NCBI GenBank assembly: GCA_009693245.1
Contig: SHXO01000016.1
Coordinates: 1-41,139 of the forward strand
From: Betaproteobacteria bacterium
GTDB lineage: Bacteria > Pseudomonadota > Gammaproteobacteria > Burkholderiales > SHXO01
Reading direction: 5' to 3'
DNA: 41,139 bases
The notes below the pieces were generated by a model. It was given only the letters and a program-made list of their open reading frames with translations. It did not search any database and was not told where the DNA came from. Of the stretch, positions 14,579 through 22,980 are shown piece by piece. Made by a program: the position numbers and the translations under genes. Position 1 is the first letter of the stretch, and every line of letters starts with the position of its first letter.

Positions 14579-15286
14579 CTAGATCCTAGTACATTGCCCC
14601 GAATAGAGCACCGGCCCGCTGGGTACTCCCGAGGGCGATCCTCCGTGAGGTTCCACGCTCATGGCCATCCCCCACGCGGCGTTGAGGGCGGGCAGCAGGT
14701 GCGCGGGAATTTCCACTTCCTGGGTTTCGTGGGTGGCGATCAATCCCAATGACCGGGGATTGTGATCGCCGCCGGGCATCATCCAAAGTTCCCAAGCCGT
14801 ATTGGGCGCCATTTCCTGGTGGCCGATGACGCGGATTCGTAGTTTGGTTTTCTTGCGATCTTGCGTGGGCCAAGAAACCGTCATCATGGGGCGGGACCGC
14901 GGGTTGGACATCACCACCACCATGTACTCCTTTCCGGCTTCCAAACGGGGTAACCACACGCCTGCGTAGACGGCCAGGAGCACCAGCGCCGCGGCACTGG
15001 TGGCCGATAACCAACGCCAGAAGGGTAGGCTATGCCAGAGGCCAGGCCGGCGCCCTTGAATGCGTGCTTCGATGGCCAGCCACACCTTCTTCGGCGGGGT
15101 AACAGGCGCTATCGCTTCGCCCAACGGATGCAGGCGCGCCTGCCAGGCGGCGGCGTAGGCTCGCAGGCCGGGATCTTCCTTGAGCACATGCTCGAAGCGG
15201 CGGCGCGCACGGCCTTGCAGCGTGCCGAGCGCGTATTCGGCCGCCAAGGCCTCTCGCATCTCCGCGTTCCAGTACTTTTCCTTCAT
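14579..15286 (-). CDS. Anti-sigma factor (RskA/anti-sigma-K type)
   Basis: The 235-residue membrane protein has an N-terminal cytoplasmic anti-sigma region (AAEYALGTLQGRARRRFE), one transmembrane segment at about 91-112, and a periplasmic RskA domain (TAWELWMMPGGDHNPRSLGL). Anti-sigma-K factors hold a cognate ECF sigma at the membrane and release it when the periplasmic part is cleaved or senses a signal. It follows its sigma factor by six bases. The zinc-binding HxxxCxxC motif of ZAS anti-sigmas is absent, as is usual for the RskA group. Confidence 0.88.
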   Translation of the reverse strand: MKEKYWNAEMREALAAEYALGTLQGRARRRFEHVLKEDPGLRAYAAAWQARLHPLGEAIAPVTPPKKVWLAIEARIQGRRPGLWHSLPFWRWLSATSAAALVLLAVYAGVWLPRLEAGKEYMVVVMSNPRSRPMMTVSWPTQDRKKTKLRIRVIGHQEMAPNTAWELWMMPGGDHNPRSLGLIATHETQEVEIPAHLLPALNAAWGMAMSVEPHGGSPSGVPSGPVLYSGQCTRI

Positions 15287-15292
15287 GGCGTC

Positions 15293-15850
15293 CTATCGCA
15301 TGCCATCGAGACAGCCCTTCAGGCGCTCAAGCCCGCGCCGGATCCACGTCTTGACCGTGCCCAAGGGTTCCTTGATATGCGCGGACAGTTCCCCATGGGA
15401 GAGCCCGTGGGTGTATGCCAGGGCGATGCTTTGGCGTTGCTTGCTGCTCAACTGTTTCATGCACTCCGCCAATGCGCGGCCCTCGCGGTCTTTGCTCAGC
15501 AACAGCTCCGGTCCATCGCCTTCATCGGCCACGGACTCCAGGAGCAGTTGGTAGTCGTCGCTAGCCACCTCGAAATGCGGGCGTCGCAGCCAATCCAAGG
15601 CGCGATTTCGCACGATGGCAGTCATCCAAGTCATCTGGGCGCTCTTGGACGAACTATAGCCTTCGGCGTGATTCCATATGCTGACGAAACTTTCTTGCAA
15701 CACTTCCTCGGCCCAGTCTTGCCTTCTCACTATACGCAGGGCAACGCCGAACAGTTTCGCGCAAGTGTGCCGGTAGAGTTCGGCGAAGGCCCTCTGGTCG
15801 CGCAGCGCGCTGCGCGCCATCAACTCATGGAGAAGCGTGTTATCGAGCAT
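15293..15850 (-). CDS. ECF RNA polymerase sigma factor (SigK-like)
   Basis: The 185-residue protein has sigma region 2 (FAELYRHTCAKLFGVALRIV, WAEEVLQESFVSIW) and region 4 (QRQSIALAYTHGLSHGELSA with TVKTWIRRGLERLKGCL). Pairing with an RskA-type anti-sigma places it near the SigK group. Its ATG lies inside the last codons of the adenosyltransferase gene (11-base overlap), so translation may be coupled. No target promoter could be assigned from this window alone. Confidence 0.92.
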   Translation of the reverse strand: MLDNTLLHELMARSALRDQRAFAELYRHTCAKLFGVALRIVRRQDWAEEVLQESFVSIWNHAEGYSSSKSAQMTWMTAIVRNRALDWLRRPHFEVASDDYQLLLESVADEGDGPELLLSKDREGRALAECMKQLSSKQRQSIALAYTHGLSHGELSAHIKEPLGTVKTWIRRGLERLKGCLDGMR

Positions 15851-16403
15851 TGTCCGCGGGGCGGTCCTTTTTCCAGAGTACGTCTTGCCCGCCCGCGCGC
15901 CGGTTCAGCACCCGGCACAGCACGAAGAGCAGGTCGCTCAAGCGGTTGAGGTAGTGCCGCAGGGGAAGCGAAAGAGATTCCGCTTGCGCGAGGCTTACCA
16001 CGCAGCGCTCCGCCCGGCGGCAAATCGCCCGCGCCACGTGACATAAGCCAGCCGGCCGCGACCCGCCGGGAAGGATGAAATCCTTGAGCGGTGGCAAATG
16101 CTCGTTGAAGCTGTCCAGGGCTGTTTCCAAGTGCGTGACGTGCTCGGGGGCGATCATCTTGTAGCCTGGGATGCTCAACTCGCCACCGAGATCGAAGAGC
16201 TTGTGCTGAATCTCCGTGAGCAAGGTGGCGATGTCTTGGTCCAAGGGCTCGGAAGCCAGCACGCCTATCGCCGAATTGAGTTCGTCCACGGCACCGATGG
16301 CTTCGATGCGCAGGCTATCCTTGCGCACCCGTGATCCATCGCCCAGGCCGGTGGTGCCATCATCGCCCGTGCGCGTGTAGATTTTCGATAAGCGGTTACC
16401 CAT
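15840..16403 (-). CDS. PduO-type cob(I)alamin adenosyltransferase
   Basis: The enzyme transfers the 5'-deoxyadenosyl group of ATP to cob(I)alamin, making adenosylcobalamin. The 187-residue protein has the PduO signature KIYTRTGDDGTTGLGDGSRV at residues 7-26, then RIEAIGAVDELNSAIG, and the C-terminal RAICRRAER and YLNRLSDLLFVL helices. AAGGA lies eight bases before the ATG. No cobalamin riboswitch is possible in the 49 bases that separate it from the upstream MBL-fold gene. Overlap with the sigma gene is unusual and suggests co-expression. Confidence 0.93.
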   Translation of the reverse strand: MGNRLSKIYTRTGDDGTTGLGDGSRVRKDSLRIEAIGAVDELNSAIGVLASEPLDQDIATLLTEIQHKLFDLGGELSIPGYKMIAPEHVTHLETALDSFNEHLPPLKDFILPGGSRPAGLCHVARAICRRAERCVVSLAQAESLSLPLRHYLNRLSDLLFVLCRVLNRRAGGQDVLWKKDRPADNAR

Positions 16404-16452: not shown

Positions 16453-17385
16453 TCAGCGCTCCAGATCCTCGACTTCCAACTGCAGGTAACGCCGCAGCAC
16501 GTTGCGCCGGTGCAAATCGGGATACTGCGACCATGAAGCGTATCGCTCCATGACGGCCTCGTCCATGGCCTCCATGAGCCCGCGGCCCGCCGTGTACATC
16601 CCCCTGACCTTGGCATCGAGATCGCGCAGGTAGTCCGCCGTCTTGCCCATGTCTCGCGCGTGGAGAATGGGGCCGTAGGCGGGGATTACCTTTGCGGGTT
16701 TGAGCGCGAAGAGCGATGCGATCGCCGCCAGCCAGCCGTTGAATTCGCCATCGCGTAACTCTGGGATGCGCGATCCCATGACGATGCCCCCGGCGAAGAG
16801 AATGCCCGAGCGCGGATCGTAGACGGCGAGATCGCCTGGTGTGCTCGCCCAACCGAAGTGCAGGAGTTCGATGGGTCTCCCGCCCCCATCGATGCGCGTG
16901 CCGTGATCCACCAATTGGTTGGGGAGCACCAAGCGCGTACCCAGCATCGGCGCCTCTCCCAGCGCCTTGCGCAGATTGGCGAGGCAATGCTCACAGCGCG
17001 CGCTCATGAGTTCGTCCGTCTTACGATGGGCGAGTAGCGGTATGCCAAGCTCGGTGAAGGCGGCGGCGCCAAACACGAAGTCCTGAACCGCGTGGGTGAT
17101 AATCACCAGGCCCACGGGCCTTCTCGTTACCGTTGCGATGGCGGCCAGCATGGCCCGGCCGTGGGCGTAGGAGCCGCCCGTGTCGATGACCACGACGGCA
17201 TGTGGCCCGACGATAAAACCGGAATTGGCGGCGTGGCCGAATTGGCTCACTTCCGAGTTGTCGCCAGGGAAGGCATAAACGTCAGGCGCCACCTGCACGG
17301 GTTCCAAGGCGAGGGCGGTCGTGCTCGTAACCAGCGACGCCAGCACCGCGGCCAACCGGCCAATCGTGTCTATAATCGATTTCAT
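16453..17385 (-). CDS. MBL-fold protein lacking metal ligands, SoxYZ-associated
   Basis: The 310-residue exported protein (signal peptide about 1-27) follows the metallo-beta-lactamase fold found with quinoprotein-relay SoxYZ-like carriers: VAPDVYAFPGDNSEV, GFIVGPHAVVVIDTGGS (56-72), and an FVFGAAAF helix. The metal site is gone: HxHxDH reads HAVQDF (98-103), the next His position is S181 in WASTPGD, the bridging Asp region reads FAGGI, and the usual PGHGP is PAYGP (Y237). A CxxC pair (C131/C134) is present. It is therefore probably a non-hydrolytic family member that binds or scaffolds. Its start is only 18 bases from the divergent SoxYZ-like gene. Confidence 0.85.
   Translation of the reverse strand: MKSIIDTIGRLAAVLASLVTSTTALALEPVQVAPDVYAFPGDNSEVSQFGHAANSGFIVGPHAVVVIDTGGSYAHGRAMLAAIATVTRRPVGLVIITHAVQDFVFGAAAFTELGIPLLAHRKTDELMSARCEHCLANLRKALGEAPMLGTRLVLPNQLVDHGTRIDGGGRPIELLHFGWASTPGDLAVYDPRSGILFAGGIVMGSRIPELRDGEFNGWLAAIASLFALKPAKVIPAYGPILHARDMGKTADYLRDLDAKVRGMYTAGRGLMEAMDEAVMERYASWSQYPDLHRRNVLRRYLQLEVEDLER
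17371..17376 (+). promoter_or_regulatory. Candidate -10 box for the SoxYZ-like gene
   Basis: A perfect TATAAT lies 28 bases before the ATG of the SoxYZ-like gene, inside the first codons of the divergent MBL-fold gene. No TTGACA-like box lies 16-18 bases upstream, so it would need an activator or be a weak promoter. With only 18 bases between the two start codons, promoters of both genes must overlap the opposing coding sequence. Confidence 0.4.
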
Positions 17386-17403
17386 CCTAGGAAGGAGCGC
17401 TTA

Positions 17404-18234
17404 ATGCCGAGATTCTTGAAGTATGTGTTGTTTTTGGCTGTAATGCTGCCGGTTGCTGGTCTCGCCAACGAAAAGGCGGAGCCCGATCCCGACAATAGCC
17501 AGTATTGGGACACGATCCGGAAAATAACCTTTGGTGACCGCGAAATTCTCGACGGAAAAGGCGTCATCCGGCTCTATCTTGCCTTGCGTGCCGCCGACGC
17601 TTCCACCGTACCCATCGCGGTCAAGGGGCAGATCGACCAGACGCCGGAGCGTTACATCAAGTCGGTCTACCTTATCATCGAACGCAATCCCGGGCCCTCG
17701 GCCGGCATCTACCACTTCACGCCGGACAGCGGCCGCGTGCAATTGGAGACGCGCCTGCGTTTCGAAGATTACAGCCATATCCGGGCCATCGCGGAGACCA
17801 ACGACGGCAAGCTGTGGATGGATAGCCGCTGGGTGAAAGCGGCGGGGGGGTGCTCCGCGCCCATGTCCAAGTTCTTCGTGCCGCCCAGCTTGCTTGGCAA
17901 GATGAAGTTCAAGTTCGAAGACGATCACATCAAGGACAACGAGCCGAATCTGGTGCAGCTCATGATCCGGCACCCGCAGGAGTCCGCCTTCGCCATGGAT
18001 TTCGACGGCAACAAGACCCCGGAATTCGTGCGCAACGTGAAGGTCACCTACGGCGGCAAGATCGTGCTGGAGGCGGAGGTGGATTTTTCCCTGAGCGACA
18101 ACCCGAGCTTTCGCTTCAACATCGTGCCCAAGGGCGCTCCCGCGCAGTTGAAGGCCTGGATCGAAGACACCTACGATAGAAGCTGGGAGCAGTCCGTGGA
18201 GATCGTACCGGGCGCCCCATCGCCAGGTTCATGA
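17404..18234 (+). CDS. Quinoprotein-associated SoxYZ-like carrier protein
   Basis: The 276-residue protein has a signal peptide (about 1-21), a SoxY-like domain containing the carrier cysteine C150 in AAGGCSAP, and a SoxZ-like immunoglobulin domain (PNLVQLMIRHPQESAF… to …FNIVPKGA). Fused SoxYZ-like carriers of this kind occur beside periplasmic quinoprotein dehydrogenases. By analogy with SoxYZ they should carry a covalently bound intermediate on the cysteine, but the cargo is unknown. AAGGAG lies six bases before the ATG at 17404. A longer reading upstream would overlap the divergent gene and lacks a signal peptide. A terminator-like hairpin follows. Confidence 0.87.
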   Translation: MPRFLKYVLFLAVMLPVAGLANEKAEPDPDNSQYWDTIRKITFGDREILDGKGVIRLYLALRAADASTVPIAVKGQIDQTPERYIKSVYLIIERNPGPSAGIYHFTPDSGRVQLETRLRFEDYSHIRAIAETNDGKLWMDSRWVKAAGGCSAPMSKFFVPPSLLGKMKFKFEDDHIKDNEPNLVQLMIRHPQESAFAMDFDGNKTPEFVRNVKVTYGGKIVLEAEVDFSLSDNPSFRFNIVPKGAPAQLKAWIEDTYDRSWEQSVEIVPGAPSPGS

Positions 18235-18363: not shown

Positions 18364-18678
18364 ATGACGGCCCGGATACTCGCAGTTCTGATCGCTGGAT
18401 TCGCCATGGCCTTCCCGCTCTATGCGCAAGGCGATGCGGCGGCCGCAAGGAAAAAGACCCAAATGTGCGAAGGTTGCCACGGCATCGATGGCTATCGCAC
18501 CGCTTACCCCAAGGTCTATCCCGCCCCCAGGATGGGTGGCCAGACCGCGGCCTATTTGGTGAAGGCGCTCAAGGATTACCAGAGCGGCGCGCGCAAGCAT
18601 CCTTCCATGGTTGGGGTCGCCTCGAGCCTGAGCGAGCAGGACATGGCCGATTTGGGCGCTTACTACGCCGCCAATTGA
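18364..18678 (+). CDS. Small periplasmic class I cytochrome c
   Basis: The 104-residue protein has a signal peptide ending near AQG and a single c-type heme site, CEGCH (35-39), with M82 in HPSM as the likely axial methionine. This is the c553/c5-like small cytochrome pattern, a soluble electron carrier. The next cytochrome gene follows after 28 bases. Together with the SoxYZ-like carrier upstream, it may take electrons from a periplasmic dehydrogenase; none is encoded in the window. The ATG has only a weak ribosome site. Confidence 0.9.
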   Translation: MTARILAVLIAGFAMAFPLYAQGDAAAARKKTQMCEGCHGIDGYRTAYPKVYPAPRMGGQTAAYLVKALKDYQSGARKHPSMVGVASSLSEQDMADLGAYYAAN

Positions 18679-18706
18679 ACGCTGCGTAACGACAATGGAA
18701 AGACCC

Positions 18707-19030
18707 ATGACCAAAATCACATTACTGGCGATGGCCTTGGCGGCAGGTAGCTTCGGCGCGCAGGCCGCGGACTATGATGCCGGCAAGAAAAAAGCAACGG
18801 AAGTATGCGGAATGTGCCACGGGCCAGAAGGCAATAAACCCATTACCCCGGATACTCCGATTCTCGCGGGGCAGCATTACGAGTATCTCGTCGCGGCTAT
18901 TAACCAGTACAAGAAGGGAGAGCGCCAAAATCCCATGATGGCCCCCATGGTGCAGCCCCTGACGAAGGCCGAAATCAAGAACCTCGCGCTCTACTTTTCC
19001 AAGCAAAGCGGGCTGCGCGCCAAGTACTAA
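18707..19030 (+). CDS. Small periplasmic class I cytochrome c, second copy
   Basis: The 107-residue protein has a signal peptide (cleavage near AQA-AD) and one heme site CGMCH (34-38); methionines in NPMMAPM could be axial. It is related to, but clearly different from, the upstream cytochrome. The ATG at 18707 is preceded by GGAAAG; an ATG four codons earlier is also possible. The stop codon overlaps the stop of the convergent DUF1841 gene (CTAA at 19027-19030). Confidence 0.9.
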   Translation: MTKITLLAMALAAGSFGAQAADYDAGKKKATEVCGMCHGPEGNKPITPDTPILAGQHYEYLVAAINQYKKGERQNPMMAPMVQPLTKAEIKNLALYFSKQSGLRAKY

Positions 19031-21817: not shown

Positions 21818-22116
21818 GGGGCGTAACAGTAACAGGAGCTGGGCACGCGCATGAATTGGGTCCGGGAAACACCGATGCCTTCCTGGTTTCAAAAGTAAGT
21901 CTGGCCCGGCTGGCGCCCGGCCGCTTGATAGGTGGTCGTTTACGTCTTTACTTTGAGCAAGCGGTTCTTTTGACTGTAGGAATATACATATCGAAAAACT
22001 TTACGGTTTGCCGGGGCTCGTTGGGACCGAATCCATAAGATACTGCTTTTAAGGTGGAAAAATGATGGGATGGGTTCTTGCCTATCGTCCAAACAAATAA
22101 AATAACTAGGAAAGAA
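21818..22116. promoter_or_regulatory. AT-richer divergent intergenic region
   Basis: These 299 bases separate the FAD-protein gene from the PEP-CTERM gene. The right two thirds are clearly more AT-rich than the surroundings (for example 21940-22010 and 22085-22110), as expected for promoters. A GG-N10-GC pair at 21903-21916 loosely resembles a sigma-54 site but its -12 part is poor. No gene was seen in it. Confidence 0.4.
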
Positions 22117-22980
22117 ATGAAGAAGCCAAATGCCGGTAACTTCTTGGGCGTGCGAGCCGTGAGGCCGAAATTGCGAGGTGCTGCAGCTACGGCTTGGCTT
22201 GATCATTACGAAAAAGATGACAGGAGCCTTCACGCCAACTCACGGCCCCGGCGGTTTCTGGCGAGCGCGTTCCGCAGCCTGACTTTCGCTCTCGTGGTGT
22301 TGGTCGCGTGGCCTGCGGCACCATCCGCACAAGCGGCGCTGATCGACCGGGGCGGTGGCATGATCTACGACACCACACTGAACGTCACCTGGCTCGCGGA
22401 CATGAACTGCGCCAAGACGCAATACGACGAGTCAAACGGTTCCTCAGGTTTCGAGGGTGGCCGAATGGGCTGGGCCCAGGCCGCTCGCTGGGCATTCAAC
22501 CTGGTCTACGGCGGATTCGACGACTGGCGGCTGCCAGCCCTCAATCCGGCAGACGAGACATGCAACCGTGCCTTCGATCCAGGCGGCGGTTTTCCGCTAC
22601 AGCACCTCGGCTTCGATTGCTCTGGCGGTGAGTTAAGTCACTTGTTCGTTACCGAACTGGGCACCAAGGCGCGCGAGTCGGTCCTGAATCAAACCGGGGA
22701 CACTGACGAACAGAAGGCCAACCTTGCACTCTTCACCAACGTGCAGCGGAGTGGCTACTGGTCCATCACGGAGTACGAGCCGGACTTTGATAATGCGTGG
22801 TTCTTCCTTACCATCGCGTTGGAGGGTGGCCAGCGCGTCAATGACAAGGGTACCCCGTTCCATGCCGTCGCTTTGCGCCCGGGAGATGTTGCTGCTTTTG
22901 TCCCGGAGCCACATTCCGCGGCGCTGGTGTTGCTTGCGATAGGCGCTGCAGCGGTAACGCGCAGACGGCGATCCCGTTGA
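22117..22980 (+). CDS. PEP-CTERM-sorted protein with DUF1566-like domain
   Basis: The 287-residue exported protein ends in a PEP-CTERM signal: VPEP (262-265), a hydrophobic stretch, then RRRRSR. Exosortase cuts such tags and sends the protein to the envelope or biofilm matrix. The middle (LIDRGGGMIYDTTLNVTWLA… with FDDWRLPALNP) resembles the DUF1566/Lcl-type domain frequent in PEP-CTERM proteins. The ATG at 22117 has AGGA five bases before it, but the first 50 residues precede the hydrophobic signal core (FRSLTFALVVLVAW), so a later start is possible. No exosortase or EPS genes are in the window. Confidence 0.82.
   Translation: MKKPNAGNFLGVRAVRPKLRGAAATAWLDHYEKDDRSLHANSRPRRFLASAFRSLTFALVVLVAWPAAPSAQAALIDRGGGMIYDTTLNVTWLADMNCAKTQYDESNGSSGFEGGRMGWAQAARWAFNLVYGGFDDWRLPALNPADETCNRAFDPGGGFPLQHLGFDCSGGELSHLFVTELGTKARESVLNQTGDTDEQKANLALFTNVQRSGYWSITEYEPDFDNAWFFLTIALEGGQRVNDKGTPFHAVALRPGDVAAFVPEPHSAALVLLAIGAAAVTRRRRSR

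Follow-up and report, generated by a model that had tools for sequence, protein, structure and literature searches.

A clade of SoxH-like metallo-β-lactamase-fold proteins with replaced zinc ligands and an invariant CxxC motif

Results

The window, a stretch of 41,139 nucleotides from a 3.0-Mb draft genome of 130 contigs, carries at positions 16453–17385 of the minus strand a gene for a 310-residue SoxH-like metallo-β-lactamase (MBL)-fold protein, assigned from profile matches, an alignment of zinc ligands and an AF2 model. As a first-pass annotation of this DNA had claimed, the frame runs uninterrupted through 310 codons and both fold and signal peptide are retained. The N-terminus is a hydrophobic leader ending at ALA-LEP, by eye a Sec-type signal peptide of about residues 1–26, and the match to Lactamase_B (PF00753; 56.9 bits against a gathering score of 22.7) places the protein in the MBL fold superfamily. 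It belongs by score to neither of the related curated families, reaching 204.9 bits against a cut-off of 280 for TIGR04559 (SoxH_rel_PQQ_2, quinoprotein relay system zinc metallohydrolase 2) and 190.9 bits against 300 for TIGR04558 (SoxH_rel_PQQ_1, quinoprotein relay system zinc metallohydrolase 1).

An 18-bp gap (17386–17403, read from the sequence) separates the start codon of this gene from that of a divergent gene (17404–18234, plus strand) for a fused SoxYZ-like carrier of 276 residues, whose single cysteine lies in a GGCSAP motif. The carrier scores 198.8 bits against the TIGR04557 cut-off of 140 and also matches SoxY (PF13501) and SoxZ (PF08770), so that it is a member of the family. 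In aligned TIGR04557-type carriers GGC is followed by serine or threonine, the full GGCSAP is found in nearly all, and the GGC cysteine is invariant. In the window, the gap between the divergent genes yielded no assignable promoter. Next to the carrier are genes for two small c-type cytochromes (18364–18678, CEGCH, and 18695–19030, CGMCH; both plus strand), which profile matches and synteny identify as conserved neighbours. Downstream of the MBL gene and in the same direction are a PduO-type cob(I)alamin adenosyltransferase (15840–16403, minus strand), an ECF sigma factor (15293–15850, minus strand) and an RskA-type anti-sigma factor (14579–15286, minus strand), all in conserved synteny. In many relatives, too, this block (14579–16403) lies behind the altered MBL gene with the same orientation, and the ECF sigma factor may control the periplasmic MBL/carrier system. 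Elsewhere in the window, the protein encoded at 22078–22980 ends in VPEPHSAALVLLAIGAAAVTRRRRSR, which resembles a PEP-CTERM sorting signal.

Relatives were sampled from the order, class and phylum of the source organism, and 21 syntenic loci were found in the Burkholderiales (L073–L085 and L130–L137, some on short contigs). On one side these carry nth, DUF1841, two cytochrome c genes, the SoxYZ-like carrier and a zinc MBL, and on the other the altered MBL, pduO, the ECF sigma factor and the anti-sigma factor. In all 21 an intact zinc MBL of the HHDHHDH type (TIGR04559-like; truncated in one) adjoins the altered gene and heads the carrier/cytochrome c operon. The divergent pairing of altered MBL and carrier described in the first-pass annotation is therefore true of the window but unusual, as the relatives hold the intact zinc MBL between the two. 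The absence of that gene from the window can be regarded as a loss only provisionally and wants confirmation, the contig being part of a draft assembly. Elsewhere in the source genome, at the edge of contig 31, an intact zinc homologue is encoded (390.2 bits), and the careful tree described below places it as sister to the syntenic-locus zinc MBLs with support of 98/98. Contig 119 of the same genome carries SoxY (ending GGCGG) and SoxZ as separate genes within positions 1–500, and an ordinary Sox carrier is thus also encoded. The idea that the contig 31 zinc MBL and the SoxY/SoxZ pieces of contig 119 are one split operon was rejected, given that the contigs do not overlap and no carrier N-terminus is present.

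In a shift-free alignment to zinc homologues with the ligand set HHDHHDH, the seven ligand positions of the altered protein are H98, V100, D102, F103, S181, G200 and Y237. Compared with a functional zinc metallohydrolase (HxHxDH and the equivalents of H196, D/C221 and H263), the protein has HVDFSGY in place of HHDHHDH, with five of seven ligands replaced. The motifs quoted in the first-pass annotation (HAVQDF, WASTPGD, FAGGI and PAYGP) lie where it had placed them and every one of them is changed; since H98 and D102 are kept, it would be wrong to add that every ligand has been lost. Across 45 homologues that share the altered state and a CxxC motif, H103, the last histidine of HxHxDH, is never retained, H98 is kept in 39 and glutamate or aspartate at position 102 likewise in 39, H237 is kept in 12, and H100, H181 and D200 are kept in eight each, with pocket positions 181, 200 and 237 variable. 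Eight members at pqq-type loci retain the Zn1 triad of H98, H100 and H181 and, to judge from these residues, might bind one zinc. The possibility that ligands are supplied from shifted positions was checked in the clade alignment (n=45) and rejected, as no shifted histidine or aspartate is conserved and the only clade-specific conserved residues are two cysteines. As read from the alignment, the di-zinc hydrolase site is dismantled in the CxxC clade, always including H103.

These two residues, C131 and C134, are the sole cysteines of the altered protein and form the motif C131-E132-H133-C134 (codons TGT GAG CAT TGC; 16984–16995, minus strand). The homologue alignment contains 130 rows, of which 76 have all seven ligands (77 with one truncated row) and 47 have altered ligands together with cysteine at both 131 and 134, a pair found in none of the all-ligand rows. 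Forty-five of the 47 CxxC rows were counted, leaving out one copy of the window as well as L072/L078 (also CxxC). The other seven rows comprise four variants of the GQHR/NQHY type, two truncated sequences and one distant protein. The motif is invariant in the 45 clade members and occurs in none of the 77 zinc homologues, which mostly have glycine, alanine or serine at position 131 and tyrosine or phenylalanine at 134. It is kept in the most diverged sub-branch (L141–L145) and on a branch of length 1.84. Attachment of a c-type haem at the motif was considered and rejected, the residue after C134 being leucine, isoleucine, tyrosine, arginine or phenylalanine and never histidine. A literature search found no description of a CxxC MBL protein of this kind.

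Zinc-ligand loss is also found without the cysteine pair, as NHDYHGH in L164–L166 and as GQHRHDH in L027, L034, L102 and L157. L164, L165 and L166, from three genomes of the same order, match TIGR04558 at 400–407 bits, with hits that start about 1.5 kb into each locus. They are an independent case in which the zinc site has eroded in another way, although the proteins are named zinc metallohydrolases. Among the 11 TIGR04558 members over the cut-off that were examined, none has CxxC, eight keep all ligands and three have this other altered set. Motifs of the form GGQDHRW or NSQNHYW, again with no CxxC, are seen in the MBL homologues L027, L029, L034, L102 and L157, four of which group apart on the tree. 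A general rule coupling ligand loss to CxxC is rejected by the NHDYHGH and GQHRHDH groups, and the association is therefore limited to the CxxC clade.

Phylogenetic trees were computed with the ligand and cysteine columns removed. In a quick tree all 45 CxxC proteins fell on one side of a single branch (SH-aLRT 94), and when TIGR04558 members were added the CxxC label needed two changes. A careful tree of 80 rows, from which the longest branches were left out, recovered one CxxC clade with support of 80/94 beside a TIGR04559 clade (100/100) and a TIGR04558 clade (100/100), making a single origin of the CxxC clade likely, not proven. Because CxxC probably arose only once on the tree, its perfect association with ligand loss amounts to one evolutionary event. 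The altered protein of the window lies outside the TIGR04559 clade, and the CxxC proteins add to TIGR04558 and TIGR04559 a third clade of SoxH-like MBL-fold proteins, so far uncatalogued. All CxxC-clade members tested fall under the curated cut-offs of both families, the best of 15 core members reaching an E value of 1.1e-68 with the TIGR04559 model. TIGR04559 proteins share with the altered protein full-length homology, the fold, the carrier context and a signal peptide, and TIGR04558 proteins share the full-length homology; the altered protein differs from TIGR04559 in its replaced zinc ligands, its CxxC motif and its separate clade.

Selection was assessed from Nei–Gojobori dN/dS values on close pairs. 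Of seven pairs of altered proteins, six gave values of 0.12–0.18 and one gave 0.32; their zinc neighbours gave 0.10–0.14, with 0.27 in the lineage of the 0.32 pair. The altered MBL genes are working genes under purifying selection.

The first-pass annotation had asked whether the ligand losses form one clade that co-occurs with the SoxYZ-like carrier. They do fall in one clade, and a carrier gene lies within 5 kb in 30 of 43 clade loci and a zinc MBL gene in 31 of 43. Loci lacking a nearby carrier include truncated contigs and pqq loci. Eight of the remaining loci share one locus type, with pqqB, pqqC and pqqE identified in L092. The corresponding sub-clade (L089, L092, L093, L094, L097, L099, L100 and L101) mostly has the ligand set HHENHGx, and its gene is flanked by a TonB-like gene on one side and, on the other, by a prolyl aminopeptidase gene with a two-component pair. 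A gene of the PQQ dehydrogenase family lies near the altered MBL in L086 and L098, and PQQ alcohol dehydrogenase homologues were found in all 30 genomes tested, 29 of them above the family cut-off; the source genome has five such genes above the cut-off. Forty-four of the 45 genomes that carry a CxxC protein encode, in addition, a zinc homologue of TIGR04558/TIGR04559 type that is intact, the exception being G628, where no intact one was seen among the homologues examined. The altered protein is therefore not simply the cluster's own MBL turned pseudoenzyme, as the annotation had supposed, because these 44 genomes also hold the intact zinc homologue, normally in the adjacent position.

The AF2 model of the altered protein, built on a 64-row alignment (pLDDT 95.3, pTM 0.90), places C131 and C134 inside a predicted helix spanning residues 121–142. 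In the model of L141, from the most diverged sub-branch (pLDDT 90.5), CxxC lies in the matching helix, 133–154. The model matches MBL structures with Z scores of 25–33. Its closest solved folds are 8d2z, an MBL from Burkholderia cenocepacia (Z 32.8), and the chlorothalonil dehalogenase Chd (6uxu; Z 31.8, rmsd 2.4 over 278 residues), followed by the B2 lactamases CphA and Sfh-I. Another MBL protein of the source genome (contig 89, L108, 7327–8283), with the motif HYHAVR / GRG (HHVRHDR), resembles the 8d2z sequence.

A profile alignment to the subclass B2 metallo-β-lactamase CphA is gap-free over the helix, R121–L142 comprising 22 residues that likewise run from arginine to leucine. The elongated α3 helix of CphA, Arg140–Leu161, flanks the active-site groove (PMC4463611) and has been described as a wall of the substrate pocket (PMC8792953). 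Counted along CphA in this alignment, C131 corresponds to Trp150 and C134 to Ile153. Both cysteines are on the hydrophobic face of the helix, at 14 and 46 degrees from its moment. We infer that the CxxC helix lines the old substrate pocket, with the distance of the motif to the old zinc site and the directions of its side chains derived from secondary structure and the sequence alignment. CphA resembles the altered protein in this long helix and in a partly reduced zinc site, and differs in that it is still a mononuclear zinc enzyme, has no CxxC at the positions concerned and has no carrier partner.

In Chd, His143 and Asp146 from each of the two monomers together coordinate a structural zinc (PMC12784990). 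Two profile alignments, with a four-residue insertion, place these residues in the same helix region as CxxC at an offset of either one or about five residues, which makes them at best possible equivalents of C131 and C134. The similarity of Chd lies in a metal-binding i,i+3 pair at a dimer interface within this helix region; Chd differs from the altered protein in that it keeps its own active-site zinc, uses His/Asp rather than CxxC and acts on another substrate.

Discussion

The altered state is not a chance event, in view of the 45 homologues that share it and of their low dN/dS values, and the first-pass view of a maintained, ligand-deficient protein is borne out. It is very likely that the CxxC proteins form a maintained clade in which the hydrolase site has been lost and the cysteine pair is functional. 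The label of pseudoenzyme that came with that view may nevertheless be unsuitable, given that the helix that probably lines the old pocket has acquired an invariant CxxC. Taken together, the lost zinc site, the clade-wide CxxC by the old active site and the nearby carrier genes suggest that the altered protein probably performs thiol or thiol–metal chemistry and no longer zinc hydrolysis.

In SoxYZ, the sulfur intermediates are bound to a cysteine arm. We propose, with a probability of roughly 40%, that the altered protein is a periplasmic member of a SoxH-like clade that has given up zinc hydrolysis and in which a dithiol in the pocket, or a metal bound by its thiolates, acts with the carrier cysteine. 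The swinging arm of the SoxYZ-like carrier, with the cysteine of GGCSAP, would dock in the old pocket as in a SoxB- or SoxH-type enzyme, and the dithiol would exchange electrons or sulfur with that cysteine, or a thiolate-bound metal would be held there. Hydrolysis would stay with the neighbouring zinc MBL, and electrons would probably leave through the two small c-type cytochromes. A precedent for an MBL protein acting on a carrier cysteine is found in a passage of PMC11237559 that cites work on Sulfurimonas CVO and reports SoxH as a stand-in for SoxB that may release sulfate from SoxY. SoxH and SoxB are zinc-type hydrolases of sulfur oxidation, in contrast to the CxxC clade, which lacks such a site and is tied to PQQ systems.

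Several points count against this proposal: the association of CxxC with ligand loss amounts to one event, other ligand-altered lineages have no CxxC, the eight clade members with the Zn1 triad might bind one zinc, and the motif is in the middle of a helix. Redox CxxC motifs are normally found at a helix N-terminus, and a mid-helix cysteine pair is unusual. For this reason the strongest rival explanation, in itself somewhat unlikely, is that CxxC is a structural metal clasp, two cysteines from each subunit binding one metal on a dimer axis, in a stable protein that catalyses nothing itself and serves as an adaptor to the carrier or to the zinc MBL. The i,i+3 spacing within a helix suits metal binding, one of the two closest solved structures, Chd, has a structural zinc pair of this spacing in the same helix region, and the small residue at 131 and aromatic residue at 134 of the zinc MBLs are as in a packed helix interface. 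Weakening this explanation are the uncertain offset of His143/Asp146 from C131/C134 with its four-residue insertion, and the fact that thiolate metal sites are less common in an oxidising periplasm. Under either the dithiol or the clasp the cysteine pair would be essential. An improbable third explanation is a plain pseudoenzyme that acts by regulation, either as a binding partner of the carrier or in a heterodimer with the zinc MBL next to it, and whose cysteines only stabilise the fold. Active/inactive pairs of MBL-fold proteins exist in eukaryotes, where CPSF100 pairs with CPSF73, and a suitable zinc partner is adjacent in 31 of 43 loci and present in 44 of 45 genomes. The partner of the source genome, however, is not adjacent, and absolute invariance of CxxC even on the branch of length 1.84 exceeds what fold stability usually demands.

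A further possibility is that metal catalysis persists at a relocated or mononuclear site composed of H98, the acidic residue at 102 and C131/C134. H98 and an acidic residue at 102 are each present in 39 of 45 members, eight members keep the Zn1 triad, and CphA is active with one zinc (PMC8792953). We consider this very unlikely, as the window protein retains only H98 and D102, none of the 45 members has H103, and the residues at 181, 200 and 237 vary. A degenerate zinc MBL copy on its way out, to which the shrinkage of the divergent intergenic region to 18 bp, the missing zinc MBL gene and the lack of a match in the same-genus genome G491 (68% complete) could be taken to point, is already disfavoured and of almost negligible probability, given homologues kept in 45 genomes, dN/dS of 0.12–0.18 for six of the seven pairs, and a position in one deep, separate clade in place of scattered losses.

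A 2026 review ties the SoxYZ-like carrier and SoxH-like MBL proteins to PQQ dehydrogenases and puts forward, as hypotheses, roles in disulfide formation, cofactor stabilisation or PQQ protection (PMC12997753). It is possible, if rather doubtful, that conversion from zinc to dithiol in a carrier-docking pocket has produced from the MBL fold a redox or sulfur relay in the periplasm that serves PQQ alcohol dehydrogenase systems through thiol/disulfide or sulfur chemistry on the carrier cysteine, a conceivable target being, for example, the vicinal disulfide of these dehydrogenases.

CxxC-clade proteins score barely high enough with the models for quinoprotein relay zinc metallohydrolases to be wrongly annotated as zinc enzymes. 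The loss of the hydrolase site together with the invariant CxxC argues for thiol chemistry around the carrier as part of the role that the SoxYZ-like carrier and its SoxH-like MBL play in PQQ alcohol dehydrogenase clusters, and the clade supplies two residues for mutation. If the proposal is true, it would clearly exemplify the change of a metallohydrolase fold from metal to cysteine chemistry.
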